NCBI RefSeq assembly: GCF_000003815.2
Contig: NC_049985.1
Coordinates: 8,642,251-8,706,250, forward strand
DNA: 64,000 bases
Direction of reading: 5' to 3'
DNA from: Branchiostoma floridae
Taxonomy: Eukaryota > Chordata > Leptocardii > Amphioxiformes > Branchiostomatidae
The position numbers were made by a program, and so were the translations under genes. Positions 1 to 32,429 of this stretch are shown one piece after another. The notes below the pieces were generated by a model. It saw nothing but the letters and a program-made list of their open reading frames with translations. It was not told the origin of the DNA and searched no databases. Position 1 is the first letter of the stretch; the number at the start of each line of letters is the position of its first letter.

Positions 1-1319
1 ACTTCAACATTTATAGTTTCCAATATCAACAAGTGGGGCGCAGTACTTCAACATGTATTTATTGTATTGTATTGTATTGTACACATGTATATAATGGTCC
101 ATATTTAGCAAACTCTGGTTGGTGTTCAATATCACCAATGACTACTTACAACTGAGTAGTTGATATTAAGCAGGGGTTCTGAAGGATCCTTGATTGAGAA
201 TATTCTCTTCCACAGTTCTTTAAGAGGTAAAGTTTTACAAAGTGTTACGTGTTCTTTCTAAGGTGATAACACCAGGGCCTGTCGAGGGTTTGATCTCTGA
301 ACTTAAGTGCCTTTATCATTTGATACAACGGTTGGTCATACTATTATCTTATAGAAAGAACCATAGCCCACTGCACGTCTTTTAGAACGTTTGTTTGGAT
401 GGACATTTGCAGGACACATCTCACAATGATGCAACAGGACTCATCTTGTGAGAGTGAAAGAAAGCTGTACATTTTGGCTATGTGGGACAAATTCTGTAGA
501 CTGTAGTATAAAGTTCAGTGGCAGAAAAGTAGATCAGTATTAGTTGCTGACGTCCGTAAAGTCTGATTACAAAGGAGGGCTTTCATCAAGTCATTGCCAT
601 TACCACTACGTGTACTTGATACCTAAACAGTTGGGGAGAACTTGACATTATTAATCATATACAAATGTAGAGTTACAGGTTTTAGGGAATAAAATATTTA
701 TAATTTACAAGAGGTGTCTTTGAGTTGTTTTCCTGTGTGTTAATGTGTATCTCTACAGGTGTCTGTGTATGCATTTGTGTGACACGTGTGTGCATGTGTG
801 ATTGTGTTTCTGTGGAGTACACAATGTATGTGTTTGTGTGCATGTGCATGAATATGTCTGCGTGCGTTGCTTAACATACTGTCTCCTCTTGTTGGTACGT
901 CTAATATAGTAAATTTACAACAGTTTACTGTTAGCAAAAGAAGGAGTTAAGGTTATAGACAATTTTGTATACATTCCTTTGATTAACATGTAACTGCCTT
1001 TATTCATTCACATTAGTACCAGTCAATACTGAACATTTTAATGTTAAAATATGTTGCTTGCACTGAATGAAGACCCAACTCTCCCAGAAAGATCAAACAG
1101 TTACCTGAACAATATTTTTCAAAAGCGCTTACCCACGCTTGAATAACCAACGAAAGGCATTTGCTTGCAGACCTGCAGATAGCCAATAAGTGGGCTTCAT
1201 GCAAATCTATCTCCTGCCATGGGGCGCAACCACCGCCAAATACCCGTAGACTGTACCGCTTTTTCCACCAACCCACCTAATTTCAACTTTGACCCGGAAC
1301 GTCACCCCTACCACTGAAA
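1..1319. other. Upstream intergenic DNA, no gene seen
   Basis: No exon could be supported here. The stretch holds a short ATTGT pentamer array (about 57-81) and a GT-rich, low-complexity run (about 728-870) whose antisense reading gives a spurious His/Thr-rich ORF. The last about 100 bases before the MRPL10 start should contain its 5' UTR and promoter, but no TATA box is evident, which is usual for housekeeping genes. Confidence 0.6.
57..81. repeat. ATTGT pentanucleotide microsatellite
   Basis: About four to five consecutive copies of TATTG/ATTGT are directly visible. No function is implied. Confidence 0.85.
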
Positions 1320-4300
1320 ATGGCGACACTGACCAGAATTTCGTCCGCTGCAACTGCAGTGCGTGTTGGTAAGGGTATATTGAACTGTTGTTCATGTTAA
1401 ATGTAGTTAGATGTTGCGTGATATATTCTATTCATGGCATATGTTCCATGTTACTGGTTATCGTTGTTTTCCACGCGACAAGGTCGACTCGAGTGAGGGG
1501 GGTGGGGGGCAAAGCGGGTTTAGCTTGGTAGGCCAGACTCCTGAGTCCTGGTCATGGCAGATAGGACATTCCTCTTTTCAGGAAAAAACAACTCTAGAAA
1601 GTGAAAATGGATGTTTGAAGCAGTCACCACGATAACCGATATCGTGACAAAAGAGATTGACAAGTATTATCCAGCTTCAATCTCCTTGAATTTTTCTCTA
1701 CCAAACGTGCTCAGACTCAGAGGGATCTGTTATAATTCCTCACAGAATGTTACAAAACAGATCTCCAATAACTTCCAATTCCCTTCCCACACATTTTGAA
1801 CATGCTTAAAACATACTTAAAGTATGTGACAGTATAATTTCAACTGGGTAACGACATATATTAGTGAACAACTGAACATATGCGCACTAGGCACTAATTA
1901 AGTAATTTATTCCTATTCTGTGTACTTTTGTTAGGGAGATGAGTCTTTTGAGTTAACGTTATATCTCAATCAAAACTTTCTCAAGCATTCCTAATGTGGG
2001 GGTTACAGTGAATCCTATGTACATGTAGCATATTGATTTTGTACATCCCCTACCGAAATCTCAATCTTACGTGGCCATTAATGATGTCTTTCAGTGTGCC
2101 CCACTCTGGACCACATGGTGACACAGGTGCGGTACAGAAAGACCATCAACACCCGCTCCAAGAAGCACATTTCAGTGATAAAGGCAAAGTTGTTATCTGT
2201 CACCAAATGGAAAGCACCACAAGACACCAGAATGACAATGGCAGAGAGGTGTGGGCTAAGAGAGGAAAGGCTGCAAGAGACAGTTGTACAGGTGAAGCCT
2301 TTATTCTTTCTATGACTATCATTGTACTCTAGTACTACTTCCAGGAAATAGGCTTTTCATTGACATCATATTGATCATGATTTGAATCCTGGGGCGACCA
2401 CACAGGTTGATGGATAATTGGATCAAGCAAACATGTTTTACAGACACAGACTGTAACCCAACATGGCACAGATGATGTCAAAGTTTAGTTAAAGCCTATG
2501 AGGCTTTGTGATGCAAAAATAACTTTTGTCTCTCTTCATACATAAAGAGCAGTTACAGAGAACATGATGTCTTGAGTTTTGATGTGAAATTTGTATACCA
2601 GAGAATAGGCAGAGATGTAGCCCTTTATGATGTTTAATTTCGGAATAGATAGCTTAATTTGATACTCAGGGAGAAACAGCTGATGTTTTTGCAAGTGCTA
2701 AAAGGGAACAGTCTTGAATATAGGATCCTTAAATTTCAGGCTTGCAATATCATCAACGCTGATGGATAGAATTTGCCAAGAGATGATTGTAGAAACAAAT
2801 AGTGTTAAACATGTCTTAGTCACAAGGAAATGTGGACAGCTTTGGCATCTGGATATATCCACATGATTTACAAAACACTGGGGATCCCAGTTCTACTCAT
2901 GCCCAGACATCACATTTCACTGCTTCTTTCTTTTACAGGAAAACCCGCTGAGAGACTTGATGGCAAAAGAGGCACGCAATGTGTTGGAGACGAGCGGCAT
3001 GGTTGCTGTTCTTCATATCAGTGACTTCAGTGGTCCTGACAGAAGGGTTTTCTGTGCAAAACTGAAAGAGAGTGATATCACAGTACGTTTCTGGTCTAAT
3101 AGTGTCGCAGGTAAGGCTTTATAGTGATGGTGGACTTACTAAGATATTAATTAAACAGATCTTTATTCAATTCTTTTCTTCTATTTCTGGCATGTAGATA
3201 GCTTACATGATGGCAAATAAAACTACAATGTAGATGCTAACTATGAAAATCAGAACCTAAGTTGTAGGATTGATGAGAACATTTCATAAATCCACTGTCA
3301 ACCATGATAGAACCATCAAACACATGACGAACATGTACACATGGAAAGAGAGGAAGATCACTAGATATCAAGTTAAAGTCTCCCGGGCACATAGAGTGGA
3401 GTATAAGAATGGTATGGAGTCAAATATAAAAATGGTATGCACAACATGTTCTATACACCTTTCTCACGCGGCGGCCATGATAGATCGAAGACGAGGTCAA
3501 TGAGGCAAACAGACAAAACTTATTTCTAAAATCAGGTCCCATTTATTTTTCCCCCAAACCACACAAAATTTCATGATATAAGATAGAATAATAAATATTA
3601 TAACTTGTGTTATGCACTCAAAATGTAGCAATTTAGAGTATTGTATACTGGTCCCTTATTCCCTTAAGAGATGCAAAATAAAAACATAATAATGCAAATA
3701 TTCGACGGACTTCACTTATTGGTCGCTTTCCTAATTGACAGGCTATCATTAGTTGAACTGCTAATTATGATGGACAGCCTTTTGTTTGCCTCATTGAACT
3801 CGTTTTAGATCTATCATGGCCGCCGCGTGAGAAAGGTGTATAGCCAGCCTGAATTTTTTTTCCATCTTATGGACTTTGAATGGAAATCCTGTCAAGGGTG
3901 CAACGATCCAAAGAGGTCCAGGGGCATGCTCCCCAGGAAAATCTTGAAATCTAGACCCTCTGAAATGCTATGTCCTTTATTTTGAGGGACAAATTTTGCT
4001 GGTAGACTCCGCTTGGTTCAATTGATATAATGCTGATTTTTGTCAGTCAGAGACGGAATGGGCAACATTTTTGTCCGTCCCCAGCTGCAAAATTTCGGAA
4101 GGACGGACGCTGGCTAGAACCCTGGGTATGCACCACCTGTGACTAATAATTTCTCTTTTTTTCAGGCCTTGCTGTGCAAGACACTCCATATAGTACCTTG
4201 ACTACCTTGATGGTGGGGATGAACATGTATGCACACAGCCCCGATCCTCAAGTTGCACCGCTTTTAAAGGTCTTAAAGGTCACACCACAAGTTAGCTTAC

Positions 4301-4789
4301 TAGGTAAGACAGTCATGATGTGTGCGTCTTTTTTTCAAGCAATGTCTCATTCAAAATGTTTACAGCACCTTGGCTTGTTAAACAACATGTATATCAATGT
4401 ATATTTAAGGTTTGTAGTTTCAGCTGCAGCTGGGGAGGTAAAAGTTTGTAGAAGAGAGGTTTGGGGCTCTGTCTTCTACTACTATGCCCTAAACACAGTG
4501 GAACACACTGCTATTTTGACTTAAAAAGTATGCCTGTTTGATTACTAGTATACATATAGCTGGTTAAATTATTTTTATTTATTTTGTATCCTGTTCAGGA
4601 GGACTTGTTGACGGCCTGTTGATGTCCAAGGCAGACATGGAACACTATGCACAGTTACCATCCATGGAACAATGCTACGGAGAAGTGGTGTCAGTCCTGT
4701 CTGCTGGAGTAGGCCAGACCAGTCAGCTGTTACAGAACCCACTACAACAGCTGTCCAGGAATCTCCAGCAGATCTCCAGCTCAGCGTAG
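1320..4789 (+). CDS. MRPL10: Mitochondrial ribosomal protein L10 (uL10m), 5 exons
   Basis: This encodes the mitochondrial large-subunit protein uL10m, which forms the base of the L7/L12 stalk and helps recruit translation factors in the matrix. Exons are 1320-1368, 2095-2291, 2939-3110, 4166-4303 and 4599-4789; all introns are GT-AG and the frame is kept throughout, giving 248 aa (human protein about 261). The N-terminus MATLTRISSAATAVRV is Ser/Thr/Arg-rich with no acidic residue, as expected for a mitochondrial presequence. The L10 core is recognisable from exon 3: ENPLRDLMAKEARNVLETS, then MVAVLHISDFS (matching the family's P/K-M-I-A-V-x-Q/H stretch) and VRFWSNSVAG. Exon 5 has the family's GGLVDG...L block, followed by QLLQNPLQQLSRNL, like the C-terminal tail of vertebrate MRPL10. 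The start is the first ATG in a short 5' leader. Intron 3 (3111-4165) carries a MITE. Identity rests on recalled family resemblance, not a search. Confidence 0.88.
3454..3840. mobile_element. MITE with about 60-bp inverted repeats, TA target site
   Basis: In MRPL10 intron 3 the left end TACACCTTTCTCACGCGGCG is matched in inverse by the right end, and the match continues for about 60 bp through GGCCATGATAGATC and CAATGAGGCAAAC with a few mismatches. Both ends are flanked by TA (3452-3453 and 3841-3842). The 387-bp interior has no ORF. A TA target and long terminal repeats fit a non-autonomous mariner/Tc1-type element; the superfamily is inferred only from the target site. Confidence 0.8.
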
Positions 4790-5477: not shown

Positions 5478-6880
5478 TTTTAAAGTCTTACATGTAACAC
5501 ATACATGTGTCTAGCATTTCCTTATTCTCTTCGCCAAGAAGAGTATGAGATTGCTTGACTTGGGTCTGTATGTAGGTCAACAGCATATAACTCGAGAAAT
5601 TGTGGATGGAACTTTGTGATTTTTGGTAGGTGTGTAGCAGTTGTCGAAAGGAATGCCAAGTTTGAAAACGGTTTACCTGGCGTTCTCCTACGGTACTGCA
5701 GCGAGCTTGGTATGTTTTTTGCGGTTTGTTTTTGGCAGCATAAGTCAAAATCTAGCTGGGCGATTTTCACGAAACTTGGCAGGTGTGTAGCGGTTTTGGA
5801 GAGGAAGGTCAAGTGCGAAAATGGTTTACCTGGCTCTTACCTATGGTGCTGTAGCGGGATTTGTATGTAAGTGCGTTTGTCTGTAAGCAAGATAACTCGA
5901 GAACCCTTGAATGGATCCTGATTATATTTGTTAGGTGGATTGGGGTTAGAAAAACGAAGGTCAAGTTCGATAATGGGCACCCTAGTGGCTGCCTAAGGTA
6001 CTGCAGCAAAACTTTTAATTTTGGCACTTCGTGTTCTGGACATGCTGTGGTCATGATTTTTGAGTGGTAGATAGCCCTTGAAACAGAGAGTAAGTGCTGT
6101 GAGTTTGGACCCCCTAGCTGCTTTTTGGGAACTGCAGGCACCGATTTCCGTTCAAACTTTGGACGAGGATAACTTGAGAACGTGTAAACAGATCATCAGG
6201 ATTTTCGGTATGTAGATAGAATGAGTGATGACTTATACAATGTAATACTAATTATGCAAATCAGTAGCTTATTTGCATAATTAATGAGGAAAGTTCATAA
6301 ATCCATGCCAACAGCATATAACTCAAGAAGCTGTGTATGGATTTTCATGATATTTAGTATTTAAGTAGCGGCTGCGGAAAGGAAGGTTGTGTTCGAAAAT
6401 AGTTGACATAGCATTTTCCGTTAGGACGGTAGCGGGCCGAGTGTGTGCGTCCTTTTGTTTGTGGAATGCATAACTCGAGAAGCCTTGAAAAAATCCTGAT
6501 GATATTTGGTAGGTGGGTAGGGGTCAGGAAAACGAAGATAAATTATGATAGTGGGCTCCCTAGCGGCTTCCTAAGGTACTGCAGCAAAACTTATTAACAG
6601 AAATAAACTGTGCTCTATATATCTCATTTTGACCTATATCTATGGACACAGCTGTTATACAGATGGTTTGCTGGAGGACGCCCTTACACTGGGGACAAAG
6701 TCTAAATTGACAAGCATGAAATTCTGATTGACCAGGAATGCTACCAGGTCATCTGTCAGGTCACAGTCTGGTTTTGGTAATGTTTGTGTGTTTGTGAGGA
6801 ACAATAAGACCTTAAAGTCTTAAATAAAGGCATGATTATTTGGCGAAGAGATGGGTTTGTTGAACTCTAGTTGATTCTAT
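5478..6880. repeat. Diverged array of the 'actcgagaa / tactgcag' repeat superfamily
   Basis: Several imperfect units follow each other, each with the order AACTCGAGAA, then a GATATTTGGTAGGTG-like block, GGTCAAGTTCGA-like, a 'ccctagcggc' block and GGTACTGCAGC. Examples of the first block are near 5589, 5889, 6321 and 6475; of the TACTGCAGC block near 5693, 5999 and 6580. A segment near 6000-6140 has the same block order as the subterminal units of the 26163-31151 element (TACTGCAGC, GTTCTGGACATGCT, CATGATTTTT, GTGGTAGA). The 3' end resembles the repeat tail TTGGCGAAG...GAACTCTA seen again near 45400 and 58880. The ORFs across it are repeat translations, not genes. Confidence 0.65.
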
Positions 6881-7866
6881 TATCGAAGCCCTGACTTGCA
6901 TCATTGCTGTCTAATGATGGTCACCTTTACTTAATAACTCCCAAATGCTGCAAGACGTCTGTGTCATCTCATTCAGTCAATTTGAACAATGTCGAGTATT
7001 TTGCCAGCAACCTCTGGAGTCTATAGAGACTCTACATTGTATCCATAGTTGGTGTCACACGTCCTAATCTCCGAAAAACATCAGCATTTCTCTTACAAAT
7101 CGCAAGGTGGCGTGGCAAAACAAAACTTAGTGACCTCTAACCCCGTCTCCAGGATACCTGTCTGCACTGACTCAGCTGACCTCGGCATACTCACAGATAC
7201 GTTATACGTTACCAAACTTTATCGATTCATGGAGTCTACCAAGCTTAATTGACCTGCTTTGACAATGTAAAGTCATCTTTATGATACAGAGGGTGAACTA
7301 CGGGAAAAGCTCTGCGCATATGTATGCCGACGTGCGAGAAAGGACGCGCGCCGAGATCGATAGTGAACTGGAGAAGAGTAGAGTGTTCGCAAGGTAGGGC
7401 AGGTAAATTATGTCATGACTCGCGACTCTCGGAGGTCGTGTTCTGCCTCTGAGAGTCGTCAACATCCGCTTTAAATGCATACTACTTTACCATCCAAAGG
7501 AATATTGTACATCGGTATTAACTTACTTATTTTTGAGATACACGGACTTGGCTTCATTCTGCGTCCCATGCTTAGCCAAGTAGCGTCATCTCTAACGTTA
7601 AATCTAAAGGTAACAACATATAACTGTGCAATCAACACTTCTGTAAACTAAACTCTGAGTAAGTGTGGAAGTGAACTGACTCACTTCATTTAATTTTCTC
7701 AACTTCCTCCCAAAAATTGGATGACTGAACACACAATGGACATTGCGTATTATTATTATGATTGCAACAGTTCCACCTGACCCAAAGTTATTTCATATTT
7801 CAGCTCACATGTAAGTAATACCAGGAAGTATTCCAGCTGCTGTGATCAGTAACAGACAGCACAGCC
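6881..7866 (+). promoter_or_regulatory. Upstream region and probable 5' UTR of the CH-ankyrin gene
   Basis: There is no coding exon. A GC-richer stretch near 7290-7393 ends in GCAAG followed by GTAGGG, a usable donor. A TTTCATATTTCAG acceptor ends near 7802, 65 bp before the start codon, so a non-coding first exon spliced to the ATG exon is plausible. A short hairpin (CTCTCGGAGG...CCTCTGAGAG, about 7426-7456) lies in the putative intron. The exon call is inference; only the splice-like strings are seen. Confidence 0.35.
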
Positions 7867-10800
7867 ATGTCTCTGCGAACCAGAATCAACGGTTTCACGG
7901 CCTGGGTGAACCTGCGCCTGGTGTCCTACAGTCTGTCCATCAGTAATGTACTCAGCGAGCTGCTGACGGGAAGTCATCTGAAGATGTTGGTGCAAAGTAA
8001 GTTTCTATCAAGTTATTATGTTACAATAGGGCTAACCGTAACAGCTTTGCTTTCAAATTGGCTTTCACTGTGCAAAATTCACATTTCATATAACGTTATA
8101 CCTGTAATCATAAACTTTATATACATAGCTATAGATCAGCAACGAGGAACTTTAATATGGTAACGTTAATTGAGTTAAATTGTTGCCTCTATGAAAAAGC
8201 AGGTATTGTTGTTAGTTGGTTTGTTTGTTGTGGTGTGTGCGTTTACAGGTGTGATCGAATATTGTAGAGTGACATGATGCAACAGGTTGAAGAGGTGTAT
8301 TGGGATATTTGGAAAATGTGTGTTAAAGTTGAAACATTTGATATTAATTTTCAATTCTTGAACAAGGTTGACAAGGTTATTTTGTCTGTTGTTAAAGGTT
8401 TTACAGGAATGCAGATGAAGAAACTACAGAGCATGGATGGGTGAGACTGCCTCCTTATTTAGAGTTTTTCATGAAAGTAAACTTCCAAGTTTCTGTCTGA
8501 AGGCAAATTGCAAGTATATTAACATGTAGCAATATAGGAAACATACATGTCACAAAGACAGTGATTGGCATTGTAATAAGACACTAATTCAAAAAGCTAT
8601 AAATGTTGGCTATATATCTAGACAAGGTTGCTTTGACTTCTTACTGGAAGATAAAAAGCCCCATTCTTTCTATAGTTTGTGCCTCTGTGATTTTGAAATG
8701 AGGGTATATTAACTCCCTCTCTCTCTCCTGGGCTCTAGGGGTGAGCACTAATTCTGAATCTTTTTTTAAAAATTTAATTTAAATGCAAGGATTACAAACA
8801 CAGATGTGGGCAAGTATCACTGCTGCAATTTGCACACTGAATATCAAAAATCTCATACCTCCATGAAATACACTGTTCATTTCTATATGCATGCCTACAC
8901 CTGCTCTTGGTTTAAGATTTGTGAAGTTTTGAAGTCACAGAGAGCTGTTTCCTGTTATGTTTTGAACATGTTTATTTCAACATGATTTTCTGTTGTTTGC
9001 AGTCTGACAGAGACCCAGAAACTGACACGAGTGGAGTGGGCTGTGACTGCACTGAAAAAGAGGTAGGTAATAATGTACACACGTAGAGTAATGTTATGAA
9101 GTGTAAAAAAACCCATACATTGTAGTTTAGCCTATATGACACTAAGGCAGTACAATATATTTGGTCTTTTACTGGACTGTCTTTAGCAGATGGCATATGA
9201 CTGTTAGATCAACCGAATTAAATCAAAGTCTAAGATGTAGCTCAGAGTAGACTTTGTTGATGGTGTTAAGTTGTACATTAAACTTTTATTTGCAGTCAGG
9301 TCATAGAAGAAGAAGCAAGGGTAGACTGCCGGCTGGTGACGATGCGCAGTGCTGATCATGTGAGTTAACCCTGTGGCAATGTCTTTGTTACATATCTATC
9401 ATCCTGTCAGCCGAGCATGTTTAATATTATAACACTAGTTCACCTTTTCCCACTGGGGAACCTAGATTCGTTGTTTTAAAAAGCTAGGTATTCAGAGATT
9501 TCAGGTGAATGAAATGTCAACATTTTCAAGATATTGCAACGAGAAACTACCTTCCATCGACTTAACAATCCCCAAATTCCCTATTCTTATATACAACGGA
9601 TATAGGTTACCCTACGGATAAAGGTGAACTAATGTTACATGGTGTATTACTCAATGCACAAGCAAGGGCCCAGGCAAACTGACCTGTGATCCTCTTTCTG
9701 AAGCATTTTTCCCAAAGGAAGTTACCAGCCAATCAAATCGACTCTTGACTATAAAAAGTGATGTGATTGGCTTCTACATTCTCCACTACAGCTGGCATGT
9801 GCTGGTGGAGTCTGCTAATGCCCCCATATGGATTGTAGACCAGGGCTGACTTGCTTGTATATTGCATGGTACAAGATACAGGACTGGTAGACAGAGTGTT
9901 CAACTTTGTCAAATCATGGCCTTGTTTTCCAGGACGACGTATTAGAGAACATAAAATTACTTGAATTTTTTTTTTTCATTATCATTCAGTCTATGTACAA
10001 TAAAAGTTGCTTTCTTCATAAAAATCAGTGTCACAGAATTTTTGTTTTAAACTTTCCCACCCAGGTCTTTGATTTGCTGTGGCACCTGATAGCGTATGAC
10101 ATCTGGTTTACATGGGAGAGGGCCGATTATCTGCTGCAGGAAGATCTGGAAGTGTTAACTCAGGTTCCATACAAGGTAATGTTACTGTGTTGGAACATCT
10201 CTTGTTAGATGTAGTGCTCCTACATTGCTGTCTGTAGCTAAGATATGATTCAGTCTACATTTCATGTTCGAATATGTGGGGACATGTCAGCAGGGTGCCA
10301 TACTGCTTGCAGTTATATTTTTTTCTATCAGTGGGTGCAACCAAAGACAGAAAAGGTCCGGCCATTTTACCACCCTGTCTCACTGGACCGTGCATTCCAC
10401 TGTTTGGACTATACGGCTCTGTCCACGAACCCAAAAGTATTGGTCATTGCATCATCATTGACAGACATAGCTATCATGTGTTGTACATGAAAATTGTTCC
10501 AATTTTTGCTAAAGTGATTGAATGTAATGTACGGTTTTGAAAAGTCCTGTTTTTATTGTCTAGGGCTTTAGTAAAGGCATTTATTCACAACTTTATCTTG
10601 CTTGTTTCAGTGGACCCCTGAGCCACCACCTCCAAAGAAAAAGCCTAAAAGAAAAGTGAAAACGGACCTCCTTGCTGGATTTGGTGCCAAAGCAAGTGTA
10701 GCAGATGGGCCAGAGGAAATGGTTTGAATAACCTGTTCTGTTTAGCAATAAGTCATGAAGAAAATTCCTGTCCTTGGTACTGAATTTAACATAAAGGGAT

Positions 10801-24669: not shown

Positions 24670-27600
24670 TCATAGGTCTGGGATTTGCCTGTGGTACAAC
24701 TTGTAGGTCATGTTCTTAAACACAGCTGGCAGTTCCTTCATGCTGATATCAACCTGGTCAAACCCTTCCCTGAAGCCGTGCAGCACCAGTCGAGCTACAT
24801 GTGTGGAGATGAGTGAGGTAGACTGGGTGGTGGCGAGTTCGTTAACGTCGGTCCACTTGCACCCGATGATCTCATCAGCGCAGTGGTCGATGACGTGACT
24901 TAAAGCTCGTAATCTGCACACAATGTAAAGGTCAGACTTCCCAAAGGCACCGGGATAGTTGTGTAGCTGCCGTATGGTCAGGATTGACTGGAATTCTGAC
25001 TTGATTCCAGTTTCTTCAAAGACTTCACGTACTGCAGTGTCTCCTGTCCAAAGGAACATACACATGTATAGTCAGCAGGATATTTCACCTGTCATACCAT
25101 TGATACTAACTAACTAATATTGTACAAGAAGCTTTAATGATAATAAATATGTTTTGGTTAGATTTTAAATTTGGAATTAAAGACACCAGCTGGAAAAAAC
25201 AACAACAACAACAACATGTACAGTACAACTTTGTACAAGGGACCTTAGAGGATTGACTAAGACTGAACAAATGCAAAAAAAGGCATAGGGTACTAGTAGT
25301 AATGCATGGAATAAGAAATGTGTTTGGGGGACCTTAACAAAACAATAGTCAAACCTCTATGGTTCAACACTTTGCTGAGCCCCTCTATGTACCAGCCCTT
25401 GTAAACATTGCCCACTGTGTGTCTCTTACAATAGATGAGTCTTACCGAAGTCTTCTCCTGGATCAGAGATTCCTCCAGGCAGCTTCCACATGTGGGATGT
25501 CTCCTTCAGTTTTAGGACAAAAAACAAGACTCTGTTCATATCATTCATGTTTCTTCCAGTATTACAGCAGCAATACAACACATCAGTTATTTTCAGACAT
25601 GAATACTTTTTGTGCTTAACCATGATTTCCCTTTAAATATCAGTTATTGAAAAATTAGTTGCATTTCCTATACAAAACAATTTTTACTTGGAAAAAGCAG
25701 ATTTAATATAGGTGTATCACTTCACATGACTGGAGAAAAGAATTGTCTGGCCAAAGAGTGAAATTATACAATTCCTCATCAGATTTCTCAAGATTTGAGT
25801 AAAAATTTTTCACATCTCACCCTGTTCCTGTCTTGAACAACAAGAACCTCTTTAGTATCCTCCCTGAGAACACAGCCTTTGAAGAAAAAACAGAAACAAA
25901 GTATCATCATATCATTGCATGACATGGGCATAGGAAAAAAAAAGGTTGCGATTCTGTTTACCTGACCGACCCTAGCAAAAAACTGCCAACTATGGCCTTT
26001 TTTGGGTCAATCTGAAAAATGAAAACATTGCAGAATTGTACATTGTATGCTCATTTCTGTTGTAATGGAAAAATACATTTTAACATTGTATATCTCAAGA
26101 ATGAACACTCCTTGGTTAAACTATACTTCAAGTATTTGTTGGATCATTTCTGCCAAAACTTATAGTGGGGCAGATAACTGAAAAAATCTTTCACTTTGTG
26201 ATACAAGCACCAAACTTGGTACAGATACTCATTAGACTTTACTGTTTTGAAAAAGTACGCGGGCCATTTGATTTGACTTTTGGCGCCCCCTAGCGGCGCG
26301 TTTTGGTACTGCAGCAGACCTTCCGGGCTTTGTATCTCCTGTTCTAAACATGCTACAGTCATGATTTTTCTGTGGTAGAAAGCTGGTAGGGTAAGGAAGA
26401 AGTGACGTAAGTTTGGTTTCCTTAGCGGCTTGCGTTGGAACTACAGAGGCATTTTTTTGCCGCTGCCGAATTGCCCTAGGGGCGCTTTTTGGTACTGCAG
26501 CAGACCTTCCGGACTTTGTATCTCCTGTTCTAGACATGCTACAGTCATAATTTTTATGTGGTAGAAAGCTGTTGTAGTAAGGATGAAGTGACGTAAGTTT
26601 TGTCTCCCTAGCAGCTTGCGTTGGAACTGCAGGGGCGTTTTTTTTGCCGCTGCCGAATTTGAAGCGGAACAACTCCGAATGTTTAAAATGTCTAAAAGTA
26701 TGGGACAGCTAAATGTTCAACTACAATTGTGATACAAGCACCAAACTTAGTACAGATACTCATTAGACTTTACTGTTTTGAAAAAGAACGCGGGCCACTT
26801 TATTTGACTTTTGGCGCCCCCTAGCGGCGCCTTTTGGTACTGCAGCAGACCTTCCGGGCTTAGTATCTCCTGTTCTAAACATGCTACAGTCATGATTTTT
26901 CTGTGGTAGAAAGCTGGTAGGGTAAGGAAGAAGTGACGTAAGTTTGGTTTCCCTAGCTGCTTGCGTTGGAACTACAGCAGCGTTTTTTTTTTGCCGCTGC
27001 CGAATTGCCCTAGGGGCGCTTTTTGGTACTGCAGTAGACTTTTCGGGCTTTGTATCTCCTGTTTGAAACAAGCTACAGTCATGATTTTTATGTGGTATAA
27101 AGCTGTTAGCGTAAGGACGAAGTGATGTAAGTTTGGTTTCCCTAGCAGCTTGCGTTGGAACTGCAGCGGCGTTTTTTGCCGCTGCAAATTGCTCCTAAGG
27201 GCGCTTTTTGGTACTGCAGAAGACCTTCCGGGCTTTGTATCTCCTGTTCGAAACATGCTACAGTCATGACTTTTATGTGGTGGAAAGCTGTTGGTACAAG
27301 GAAGAAGTGACGTAAGTTTGGTCTCCCTAGGAACTTGCGTTGGAACTGCAGGGGCGTTTTTGCCGCTGCCGAATTCGAAGCGGAACAACTTCGGACGTTT
27401 AAAATGTCTAAAAGTGGGTTTTTGACTATGGGAAAGCTAAATGGTCACCTCTCAACCTTCTAAGGAGCTTTTTTAAATACTTTTGTGAGCAACAGATGGT
27501 GAGAATTATAGACAAACTAGGACATATTGTGACGAAATATTTTATTTACACAACTAGAATGTTCCACATTTTTTTGACATTGATAGTCATTGCCATCCTT

Positions 27601-30600
27601 ATCAAACTGAACAGTGAAGAGTCCATAATGAATAATTAAAACACCATCAGTCCTCGGTCGTCATATTCGTTCACTACTATGAATGCCAACCTATATTTAG
27701 TAATTTTGTTAAGTATACTTGCCACCTAAAAAAAACGAGGATCCAGCCTTCTGTAGATTAATTTGAAGGAGTGAGTATGGGAGCACTGGTATAGTGAATA
27801 GGATGGCACTCACGTGAGGTTTCCAGTCTGTGCAGCATCTTTCAACACGAAGCAACTTTCATCATGGAGAACTGAACAGAACAGCATTATCTATGCCTGA
27901 GAGTATGCAATCGTTATAGCAAATCTGTGAAACATGACTTTTTGCTTGTTTTGTTAGCTATGGCGTGTTCCCTGCGTTCCGTTGTGTTGAGTGTGTAAAA
28001 CTTAAGTATAAAAATAGAACAAATTCAATACAGCTGTAAGACCTGCTGTAAGACCTGCCAAATAACATTCTTGGCTGTTCAGTTTATAGTACATGTATAT
28101 CGTGGCCGCGACGACTGTTGGAGGGCTTATTTTACTTACACTTACAGTGACTCTTTTACATAGTCCTAACAACATCTTACTTGCACCAATGAGGTTAAAT
28201 CTCACATTTGCAGCTACACAGTCCAGTGCAAGGAAGACCGAATTTGTAGCATTTGCATCTTCCATAGCATTCCAGCTTGCATCCACACTTGGTCAGCTGT
28301 TGGCAACTCTCTGCAATAGGTGGAAGTGTTGTCCAGAAGACCTTCCATGTGTCTTCACTCTTCGCCCATCCCCAGTCAGCGGGACTCTGTGTTTCTGGTT
28401 GGCGGAGTGTTGACTGACTCCATATGCAGCCCGCCTGATAAACAGCGCGTTTTGCGTGCTGACGGAGTGCTTCCTTCGTTGGAGGAATGGCTTCATATGG
28501 TCTCTGCTTGCGGGCAAACAGGTCCAATCTGGCATCATTGACGCTTGCAACACTACTGGATCTGTCGTACATTGTCACGACGAATTTCTCTAGGACTGGC
28601 AGATCATCATCATCTACTGCTACTGGATACTGGCTGAGCTTTGCAAAGACATCAGAAGCCTCAGCACACACGTTCCAAGTTTGCCACGCAGACTTCTTCC
28701 CTTTGCCGCGGAAGCCTGACACAACATCGCAACCAGTGCACGTGAAGGCATGGAAGAAGAGTATTCCTTTGCTTTTCTCCATTCCTATGGAGAAGTACAG
28801 GTCATGTATAGGAAACCATCTCAGGTTGTATCCTTGGCCAAAGGCCACCCACAACTGCAGCAGACCAAACTGTTGAAGGAGAGGCAGAACACTGAGTGCT
28901 ATGACGAGGATATCTGTGTCACTGGCTTTCATCTGAAAATGCCAGTGGGTAGACATCCTGCTGCTTCTGGCTCTGCTCTCTTTGTTCGACATTTCTCAGG
29001 TAGGCTCTCTCTCTGTTGCACAGGGATGTCAAGCATGCAGGATGATACTTGAGCTCCTGTGCTACGACGTCTCCACCACTCAGTATTTTCAGAAGTCTTC
29101 CATCCTTTAGAGTTGTAGCACAGTCATTGACTCTTTTGTTAAGCTTCATGGTCATGGCATGTCTCAGTTCTAATGCAGGTTCTTCTTGTTCACAAAGAAA
29201 GCACTCAGATTCCAGACCGTCACGGCTGGTTCTTCGTAGTTTGGTTTGTCCTTCTTCTGACTGAGAAGTTTGAAGCCAATGTCTTCTCTTTCTTGCCCTC
29301 TCCAGTTTGGTGTTGTTGAATAGATAACGGCAGCTTTGGTGGTACTGTGCCTTGTTTCTCCTCAGTGTTTCTTCTATTCCACCGCCTTCATCCAGTCTGG
29401 TTGGGTCGAGAACAATGGGCATCTCATGGAGGGCATGGAACAGGGGGGCGTTGGTTGCAATCATTGTGTAGCCATCCTGTTCGGGTGAGTAACGTATGGG
29501 TGGGGATTTCAGATCCTCATTACCCTTCTCCTCTTGGCAAATACAACATTTGCTCCAGTTAGTTTTCCACTTTGATGATCCGGGAACTGATCTTGCCATC
29601 TTGTTGGGTAATGAGTGAATTAAAGCAGTAATGCCGAGCGATTCTCCTTTTACTACCTTTAGTATGATTATACACATTCAGATGAGATACAAGTAGGTTC
29701 AGACAAATTCTACATTTAGCCCTATAGTTCATTCAGTGCCATTCAAGTAAACACTGAACTCCATGCTAAGTTTCACGGCAGTGTGATGTCACCAGTAAGC
29801 CATGGCTGTGCCTTGACGTCAGGCTGCCTCCATGATCCGCCATTGTGTCGGTGGNNNNNNNNNNNNNNNNNNNNNNNNNNNNNNNNNNNNNNNNNNNNNN
29901 NNNNNNNNNNNNNNNNNNNNNNNNNNNNNNNNNNNNNNNNNNNNNNNNNNNNNNNNNNNNNNNNNNNNNNNNNNNNNNNNNNNNNNNNNNNNNNNNNNNN
30001 NNNNNNNNNNNNNNNNNNNNNNNNNNNNNNNNNNNNNNNNNNNNNNNNNNNNNNNNNNNNNNNNNNNNNNNNNNNNNNNNNNNNNNNNNNNNNNNNNNNN
30101 NNNNNNNNNNNNNNNNNNNNNNNNNNNNNNNNNNNNNNGACTGCTTACTTCCGCAATCCATAACTTGTAGCCCTCATGCAGCAGTATACATTTTAAAATG
30201 TAATCCACAAAAGACTCGCACAGGCATATTATTGGAATGAGTGGTTTAATAGGACGCAGTGGAGAAGTGTCGAAACCCTTTGTGTGCTACCCTCACCTCG
30301 TCTATTTGAAACAGCCCATGACCTCAACGCAAGCGGCTAGGGAAACCAAACTCACGTCACTTCTTCCTTACCCCAATAGCTTTCTACCACATAAAAATCA
30401 TGACTGTAGCATGTTTAAAACAGGAGATACAAAGCCCGGAAGGTCTGCTGCAGTACCAAAAAGCGCCCCTAGGGGGCGCCAAAAGTCAAATCAAGTGGCC
30501 CGCGTACTTTTTCAAAAGAGTAGTATCACATGAGTATTTGTACTAAGTTTGGCGCTTGTATCACAATTAGAGTTGAACATTTAGCTTTCCCATAGTCAAG

Positions 30601-32429
30601 AACCTACTTTTGGACATTTCAAACGTCCGGAGTTGTTCCGCTTCACATTCGTCAGCGGCAAAAAAACCGTTGCTGCAGTTCCAACGCAAGCTGCTAGGGA
30701 GACCAAACTTACATCACTTCGTCCTTACTCCAACAGCTTTCTACCACATAAAAATCATGACTGTAGCATGTCTAGAACAGGAGATACAAAGTCCGGAAGG
30801 TCTGCTGCAGTACCAAAAAGCGCCCCTAGGGCAATTCGGCAGCGGCAAAAAAACGCCGCTGTAGTTCCAACACAAGCCGCTAGGGAAACTAAACTTACGT
30901 CACTTGTTCCTTACCCTACCAGCTTTCTACCACATAAAAATCATGACTGTAGCATGTTTAGAACAGGAGATACAAAGCCCGGAAGGTCTGCTGCAGTACC
31001 AAAACGCGCCGCTAGGGGGCGCCGAAAGTCAAATCAAGTGGCCCGCGTACTTTTTCAAAACAGTAAAGTCCAATGAGTATCTGTACCAAGTTTGGTGCTT
31101 GTATCACAAAGTGAAAGATTCCTCCAAAATTTGATGTTATCTGCCCCACTATTAAGACATGTTATGAGATTGATGTTAAAAACAAAAAAAGGTAGTACAT
31201 CTATTGCAGTAAGTTTCCTACCTGCAACACCAATTTGATGCGATGCAAAGTGTGGTATTTTACAGTGATCACTGGGCAGCCAGGTGGTGAGCATGGAGTA
31301 GTCTTTATCTGCATGGTGAAACCGGAAGCCCTGGCTGGCGGCAACCGGTACAAACCGGCTCTGTAAGATGGGCACCTTGAGCCAGACTGCCTTCTTACCT
31401 TCCATCTTCCATTGCTTCAGAGATTCTGTAATGTAGAAGTCATGAAGTTATAAGGTAACATTTGCAACCAAATTTACAGCATATTTTACCCCCTCCCCAA
31501 TGCTAAATGGACTTGCAAGCAATTTGGTCCTCCCATCTCTAGTGTGAAAGCTACCCCATACCAAAGTTAAGGTCATTTATAATGATTTAGCATTCACATA
31601 ACTCCAGGAATCCAAGATATACATTTTGGGGTAAAAATAGCCCAAATCCCCAAAATAGATGATTTTAAAGTAAATATCTAAAAAAATCAACAATCATGCC
31701 AAATTTTTGGTCCCAAAATGTATGTGAACCTTGCAGCCTGACACTAATAACTAATCTATACTATAGTACTTACTTCTGAGCATCCCTGCAAAGGCATCCA
31801 GCTCTCTCAGGCTGGTGTGGAAATATGTCCCATGCAGCCCACAGTCAGGACTGCCCAGATCAATGGTCACACCTCTCCATCTAATAAAAATAACAAAGCA
31901 AACACATACATAACGACTTTACTTGTGCCCTGATAATTCATGATCACAGTTAATAACCCCATGTGATATCCCAGCCTTATGTTTGAAAAACAAGTCAGGC
32001 TAATCTAGGCAGGGTGGGCTGCATTTCTAAATGCAAATTTAGAAATTTTTAGAGGACAAACAGCCATTTATTGCTTTGGGGCCTAGAAAGGGTATCCTGC
32101 TGGGGTAGCCCACCCTACCTAGCCTAGCCCACCTTTTCCAGAAACCCTATTTGTATGGAATTGACGTTAACGTTAATTCTTCTGTCATCAGAAACACTCA
32201 ACTCTCAAACATACACAAGAAACTAAACTAGTTAGGCAATATTCCCGATATGACGTTAATGTAACATTGTGTGTTTTGATGAGGAAGACTGCTGTGAAGT
32301 GGTAACGTTACAAACTTACTTGTCGACTGTGCCCTTCAACAGTTCTTGTTGTGAGCGGCAGCTTGTATGGAACCTCCATCTATATGGCAGCAGTGCAGGC
32401 CTTGTGATCAACTTCTGTAATGCCTGCAT
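24670..32429 (-). CDS. NUDT6: Nudix hydrolase 6, 6 exons
   Basis: Exons in transcript order: 32429-32320, 31880-31774, 31425-31222, 25876-25821, 25503-25446 and 25043-24670. The frame is kept across all five GT-AG introns, giving 302 aa (human NUDT6 about 316). The N-terminus MQALQKLITRPALLPYRWR is basic with no acidic residue, so a mitochondrial presequence is likely. The NUDT6-specific N-domain follows (AVWLKVPILQSRFVP, FRFHHADKDYSML, HFASHQIGVAG). Then comes the Nudix fold with strand VLVVQDRN, MWKLPGG, and the Nudix box G170-x5-E176-x7-REVFEETGI (184-192) with all metal-binding Glu residues present. The C-terminus has GAFGKSDLYIVCRL, a typical NUDT6 stretch, and ELPAVFKNMTYKLYH. Nudix enzymes hydrolyse nucleoside-diphosphate-linked compounds; the physiological substrate of NUDT6 is not settled. 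Intron 3 (25877-31221) is swollen by a 5-kb inverted-repeat element. The gene is tail-to-tail with the CH-ankyrin gene. Confidence 0.92.
25196..25216. repeat. (CAA)n microsatellite
   Basis: About six CAA/ACA triplets after an A-run, inside the last NUDT6 intron. Confidence 0.8.
26163..27420. repeat. Left terminal/subterminal repeat array of the element
   Basis: Two larger modules (about 26200-26710 and 26725-27410) each begin with GATACAAGCACCAAACTT and end with GCGGAACAACT(C/T)CG plus ATGTCTAAAAGT. Inside, a unit of about 180-200 bp recurs. Its order is TTTTTGGTACTGCAGCAGAC, GGGCTTTGTATCTCCTGTTC, ACATGCTACAGTCATGA, GTGGTAGAAAGCTG, GTGACGTAAGTTTGGT, CTTGCGTTGGAACTGCAG and GCCGCTGCCGAA. Intact TGACGTAA occurs at 26403, 26589, 26934 and 27308. 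Confidence 0.85.
28195..29599 (-). pseudogene. Element-encoded zinc/PIN-like/CXC-like protein, frame broken
   Basis: ORF A (29599-28919, 226 aa from MARSVPGSSKWKTNW) has a first Cys pair (CCICQEE), the motif YHQSCRYLFNNTKLERARKR, a second Cys pair (CFLCEQ), then RVNDCA and KYHPACLTSLCNRER. ORF B (28992-28195, 265 aa) overlaps it in another frame. It carries DTDILVIALS, LWVAFGQGYNLRW, FFHAFTCTGCDVVSGF, GKGKKSAWQTW, and a C-terminal Cys cluster (CGCKLECYGRCKC, GLPCTGLCSCKC) like the tesmin/TSO1 CXC pattern. I recall this protein type as a multicopy, unnamed family in cnidarian, fish and invertebrate genomes, with several hundred residues between the two parts. Here those residues are missing and the frame shifts at about 28919-28992, so this copy is an internally deleted pseudogene. 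The DxD and GCD...GKGKK spacing recalls FEN1/XPG nucleases (inference). There is no sign that host selection keeps it. Confidence 0.65.
29855..30138. other. Assembly gap (284 N)
   Basis: A run of N. It falls upstream of ORF A inside the inverted-repeat element, where near-identical arrays would be hard to assemble. ORFs drawn through it are meaningless. Confidence 0.99.
30300..31151. repeat. Right terminal/subterminal repeat array (inverted)
   Basis: The same units as at 26163-27420 in reverse complement. One full module (about 31110-30600) and one partial module (about 30585-30310) are visible, shorter than on the left. Unit pieces include CATGACTGTAGCATGT, GGAGATACAAAG(C/T)CCGGAAGG and GGGCGCC(A/G)AAAGTCAAATCA. 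One intact TGACGTAA lies at 30895-30902 on the minus strand. Confidence 0.85.
31978..32147. mobile_element. Foldback MITE in NUDT6 intron 1
   Basis: GGCTAATCTAGGCAGGGTGG near 31998 pairs with CCACCCTACCTAGCCTAGCC near 32109-32128, and flanking GTTTGAAAAAC pairs loosely with the outer right end. It is about 150-170 bp with an A/T-rich centre and no ORF. It fits a small foldback element. Confidence 0.55.

Follow-up and report, generated by a model that had tools for sequence, protein, structure and literature searches.

The window analysed here is a stretch of 64,000 nucleotides from the Branchiostoma floridae assembly (C7:8642251-8706250; the assembly comprises 513.4 Mb in 431 contigs), and it contains a transposable element whose minus strand carries the remnants of a single gene. 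The element is bounded on the left by TAGTGGGGCAGATAAC and on the right by the same sequence inverted, with TTA outside both ends, as the first-pass annotation of this DNA had stated (Table 1). That annotation gave the inverted flank a length of about 130 bp; the flank is there, but this length is too short, as the repeat extends over 516 nt at 95%. The inverted subterminal arrays that it described could likewise be located, with five boxes on the left and three on the right. Additional inverted arms beyond the 516 nt stem from the direct repeats of these arrays, the number of which differs from copy to copy.

The left 161 bp was compared with the genome, and 40 matches were scored out of 73 candidates, giving a lower bound on copy number. 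There are at least 17 two-ended copies (16 of the 17 retrieved regions, together with that in the window), bearing out the proposal of a mobile element. The remaining region, L025 on C231, begins in N and has a right end only. The left ends are 98-100% identical to that of the window copy. The right ends, compared over 160 bp (131 bp in L014), are 96.9-100% identical to its right end. One copy, L015, has tandem right ends (386-545 and 1614-1773) with near-equal outer flanks, separated by 100 bases of N, which is either a local duplication or an assembly artefact.

With the terminus set as TAGTGGGGCAGATAAC, the outer three bases are equal on the two sides in 14 of the 17 copies, where about 0.3 copies (17/64) would be expected by chance. 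Eleven different triplets are duplicated: TTA in three copies, TAC in two, and AAA, CAT, ATA, ATT, AAC, ATG, CAA, GAG and CCA in one each. Three copies (L011, L019 and L024) have no matching triplet, and in L019 and L024 the terminal bases are also altered. The target duplication is thus 3 bp and is not sequence-specific, so that the earlier proposal of TTA or TTAA as the target falls, TTA being only one of the 11 triplets. An initial reading of a 2-bp TA duplication was dropped because three bases outside the TA match in these 14 copies and the empty sites agree.

These empty sites were sought by comparing the joined flanks with the genome, and the best 40 of 1838 candidates were scored. Among these, all matches listed fall on the joins of two copies, L014 and L016. 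The L014 join has two full-length matches, both in repeats and at 98%. For L016 there are 39 matches at 90-100%, which begin at the start of the join and pass the junction by 80 bases or more; 28 of the 39 are of the same length as the query. The empty sites of both insertions carry a single triplet, and they are paralogous repeat copies and not alleles. In these two cases the element has jumped into repeats whose paralogous copies remain empty.

The fuller elements are about 7.6-8.8 kb long and carry one minus-strand gene, whose protein product is about 1,535 aa long. This protein is predicted to contain an RNase-H/DDE core, with a putative catalytic triad D499/D673/E895 that is identical in six proteins. 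In the model the core has the RNase-H order of elements, and a long helical insertion precedes the final acidic residue; DDE transposases are at the top of a structural comparison, the best rows being the P element and hAT (Hermes) at 6-8% identity. By its predicted fold, a PIN fold of the FEN type with conserved acidic residues, the PIN-like part belongs to the XPG/FEN1 family of nucleases, and it may be catalytically active. It has the collinear motifs FD...SxK..ER and GCD...GxG in common with the EXO1/FEN1/XPG (Rad2) 5'-nucleases, at 10-18% identity in 50 rows; unlike them it is fused to a transposase. Neither a phmmer search against the PDB nor a profile of the core gave a match, and none was found in Pfam with the full-length L019 protein. 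Four of eight core members do match the Pfam family DUF6589 (PF20231), the best at 2.3e-10, while L019 itself scores 0.019 and 14.1 bits, under the cut-off of 27. This suggests a candidate identity for that family of unknown function. The dN/dS ratio within the family was uninformative.

Where it can be aligned, the window copy is 98-99% identical to L019, retaining only nt 1-743 and 3845-4628 of the gene. The first-pass annotation had described a central minus-strand gene of zinc, PIN-like and CXC type. All three kinds of part are found, on the minus strand, in two frames that are both remnants of one gene. The deletion removes approximately aa 249-1281, and with it the three putative catalytic residues, the predicted DDE core and the first part of the nuclease. 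No clear microhomology was seen by eye at its junction, and Pfam and NCBIfam profile searches with the two window frames gave no match. Having lost the predicted DDE core and the first half of the nuclease but kept both ends, the window copy is an internally deleted element that could move only in trans. It had seemed to lack a DDE transposase because the part of the gene with the predicted core is the part that is missing, and the fuller copies that hold it have the same ends.

Table 1. Features of the element, in positions of the window; L019 is a fuller copy of the same element.
Feature	Position	Strand	Description
Whole element	26163..31151	minus (gene strand)	4989 bp; ends, duplication, recurrent copies
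Left target-site duplication	26160..26162	none	TTA
Right target-site duplication	31152..31154	none	TTA
Left terminus	26163..26178	plus	TAGTGGGGCAGATAAC, 16 bp
Right terminus	31136..31151	minus	TAGTGGGGCAGATAAC inverted, 16 bp
Left arm	26185..26700	plus	516-nt inverted repeat, 95% complementary to 30605-31120
Right arm	30605..31120	minus	516-nt inverted repeat
Left subterminal array	26196..27363	plus	five repeats spaced 186, 345, 189 and 185 bp
Right subterminal array	30325..31109	minus	three repeats
N-terminal gene remnant	28922..29677	minus	252 aa; Cys-rich, zinc-finger-like by eye
C-terminal gene remnant	28198..28995	minus	266 aa; nuclease DTD and GCD/GKGKK parts, CXC cysteines
Internal deletion junction	28931..28932		3101 bp of L019 absent, gene nt 744-3844
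N run within element	29855..30138		284 bases

The gene is linked to these ends and is not found mostly elsewhere. Among the best 32 of 67 candidates, the six loci that give matches of at least 86% to its protein all have the ends, and the next match has at most 47% identity. The converse, that the same gene always lies between the ends, holds in part, so that one outcome named in the first-pass annotation as counting against it, ends mostly around unrelated interiors, is partly the case. With a 4628-nt gene probe, at least 368 nt of gene sequence is present in six of the 17 copies (4628 nt each in L019 and L024, 4236 in L009, 1527 in the window, 1051 in L021 and 368 in L023); L022 has 46 nt adjoining a 2461-base N gap, and ten copies have none (L010, L011, L012, L013, L014, L015, L016, L017, L018 and L020). 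Since the gene is found only within these ends, we read the gene-less copies as ordinary non-autonomous derivatives.

Eight of these ten (all except L010 and L014) have another interior in common, at least 90% of which is covered by L016. Part of it (L016:2823-3700) is an abundant repeat, and a 1301-base probe containing this repeat gave 1891 first-look candidates. The whole of the probe matches eight places at 99-100%, one of them on the contig of L025. With a repeat inside the common interior and eight near-identical places, these eight copies have therefore probably spread in trans after the repeat came in. Within L014 and L023 the minus strand has open frames of 683 and 439 aa, which by eye look like non-LTR (long terminal repeat) reverse transcriptases.

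The fuller relatives suggest a place for the element in a kind of transposon that is known but has been little studied, with one large protein in which a cut-and-paste transposase is joined to a nuclease like those of DNA repair. The X of AcademX stands for XPG. We consider it very probable that the window copy derives by internal deletion from a cut-and-paste transposon of the AcademX lineage, within the Academ superfamily of DNA transposons, and is itself non-autonomous. The placement is by traits and not by alignment to a reference sequence: the predicted DDE transposase, the XPG nuclease and the 3-bp duplication all fit. AcademX makes duplications of 3 or 4 bp, AcademH makes duplications of 9 or 10 bp and encodes a helicase, and the lineages are tied to their helicase or nuclease (PMC10045372); Academ is placed among the superfamilies with a DDD/E transposase (PMC9587614). 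Compared by description, our element thus has in common with AcademX a DDD/E transposase (predicted here), an accessory nuclease and a duplication of 3-4 bp. AcademH belongs to the same superfamily but is ruled out by its longer duplication, and encodes a helicase where the present element encodes an XPG-type nuclease; no helicase family was found among the Pfam matches of the full L019 protein and the members of two protein alignments.

The P element and hAT (Hermes) are alike in the predicted core and its helical insertion, but both superfamilies make 8-bp duplications and are ruled out by the 3 bp observed here. EnSpm/CACTA elements begin 5'-CACTA, whereas this element begins 5'-TAGTG and ends CACTA, in the opposite orientation. 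The TWA duplication of PIF/Harbinger is incompatible with 11 different triplets, and the TTAA duplication of Kolobok with 3 bp lacking sequence preference. A literature search (AcademX, XPG or PIN with transposons, Academ in Branchiostoma, DUF6589) found no description of the present family in the collection covered, although one may exist outside it.

Several observations weigh against the AcademX assignment. Foldseek alone found no significant match for the predicted core, and a decayed fragment (L041) lacks D673, which slightly lowers our confidence and slightly raises the odds of a transposon without a DDE enzyme. The likeness to AcademX lies in traits and not in aligned sequence, P-element transposase is the solved structure that comes closest to the core, and DUF6589 was not found in the literature searched. 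These last points would suit a DDE and XPG transposon of an unnamed superfamily, resembling AcademX in duplication length and nuclease without being homologous; we think this improbable, as two separate AcademX traits, the 3-4 bp duplication and the encoded nuclease, both fit. The first-pass annotation went further and proposed an uncatalogued type because no DDE transposase was seen, a reason that the fuller copies do not support. In the form where the PIN/XPG-like protein itself mobilizes a non-DDE transposon, this proposal draws on the window copy, which lacks the DDE core, and on the core fold being predicted, without support from Foldseek by itself. It is nevertheless very improbable, given that the fuller copies, with the same ends and 98-99% identity where aligned (L019), have a DDE-like core in the same gene. 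The long inverted arms might also have arisen by chance inverted duplication that trapped a host gene, but the odds of this are negligible: 17 two-ended copies share these ends, a 3-bp duplication flanks 14 of them, and two insertions have empty sites.

For an AcademX-type element we infer the following reaction. The DDE core would bind the ends, excise the element and insert it between target strands staggered by 3 bp. Branches or flaps in the DNA at excision or during the repair of gaps may be processed by the XPG/FEN1-type nuclease fused to the core, and the Cys-rich N-terminus and CXC tail could bind DNA. A stronger version, to which we give a minor chance, makes the nuclease obligate: the DDE core would cut one set of strands and the XPG-type nuclease remove the second strand or flap, and the 3-bp duplication would arise from the joint geometry of two unrelated nucleases within a single polypeptide. 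If that were true, every occurrence of DUF6589 would represent the DDE core of such a transposon.

Further relatives of the gene are present in the genome. On C13 one lies between the copies of a 595-bp inverted repeat (L057:2011-2604 and 8647-9241; 94%) starting GTACCACCTGAGGGGG; this is another family of this kind, and examination of its ends fixed no clear target duplication. On the 5' side of a relative on C8 there is an exact 509-bp direct repeat (L056:6174-6682 and 6783-7291); a copy on C4 is 99.4% identical to the C8 relative, with open frames of 1516 aa in both. Distant relatives of the core at C6:26078478, C7:10622041, C9:930352 and C3:1294796 lie in open frames of 1787-2762 aa, which exceed the present protein in length and are perhaps fused to further domains. 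With one query, no relatives were found in contigs of other genomes.

The apparent transposon without a transposase is thus explained, and with it the surprise disappears. Interest now attaches to the DDE-XPG-CXC protein and to the possible identity of DUF6589. An Academ-type family in amphioxus can now be described in its full anatomy, with ends, target duplication, empty sites, parts of the protein and non-autonomous derivatives. If the nuclease takes part in the cutting, the family would make it practicable to study a transposase equipped with a structure-specific nuclease of its own.
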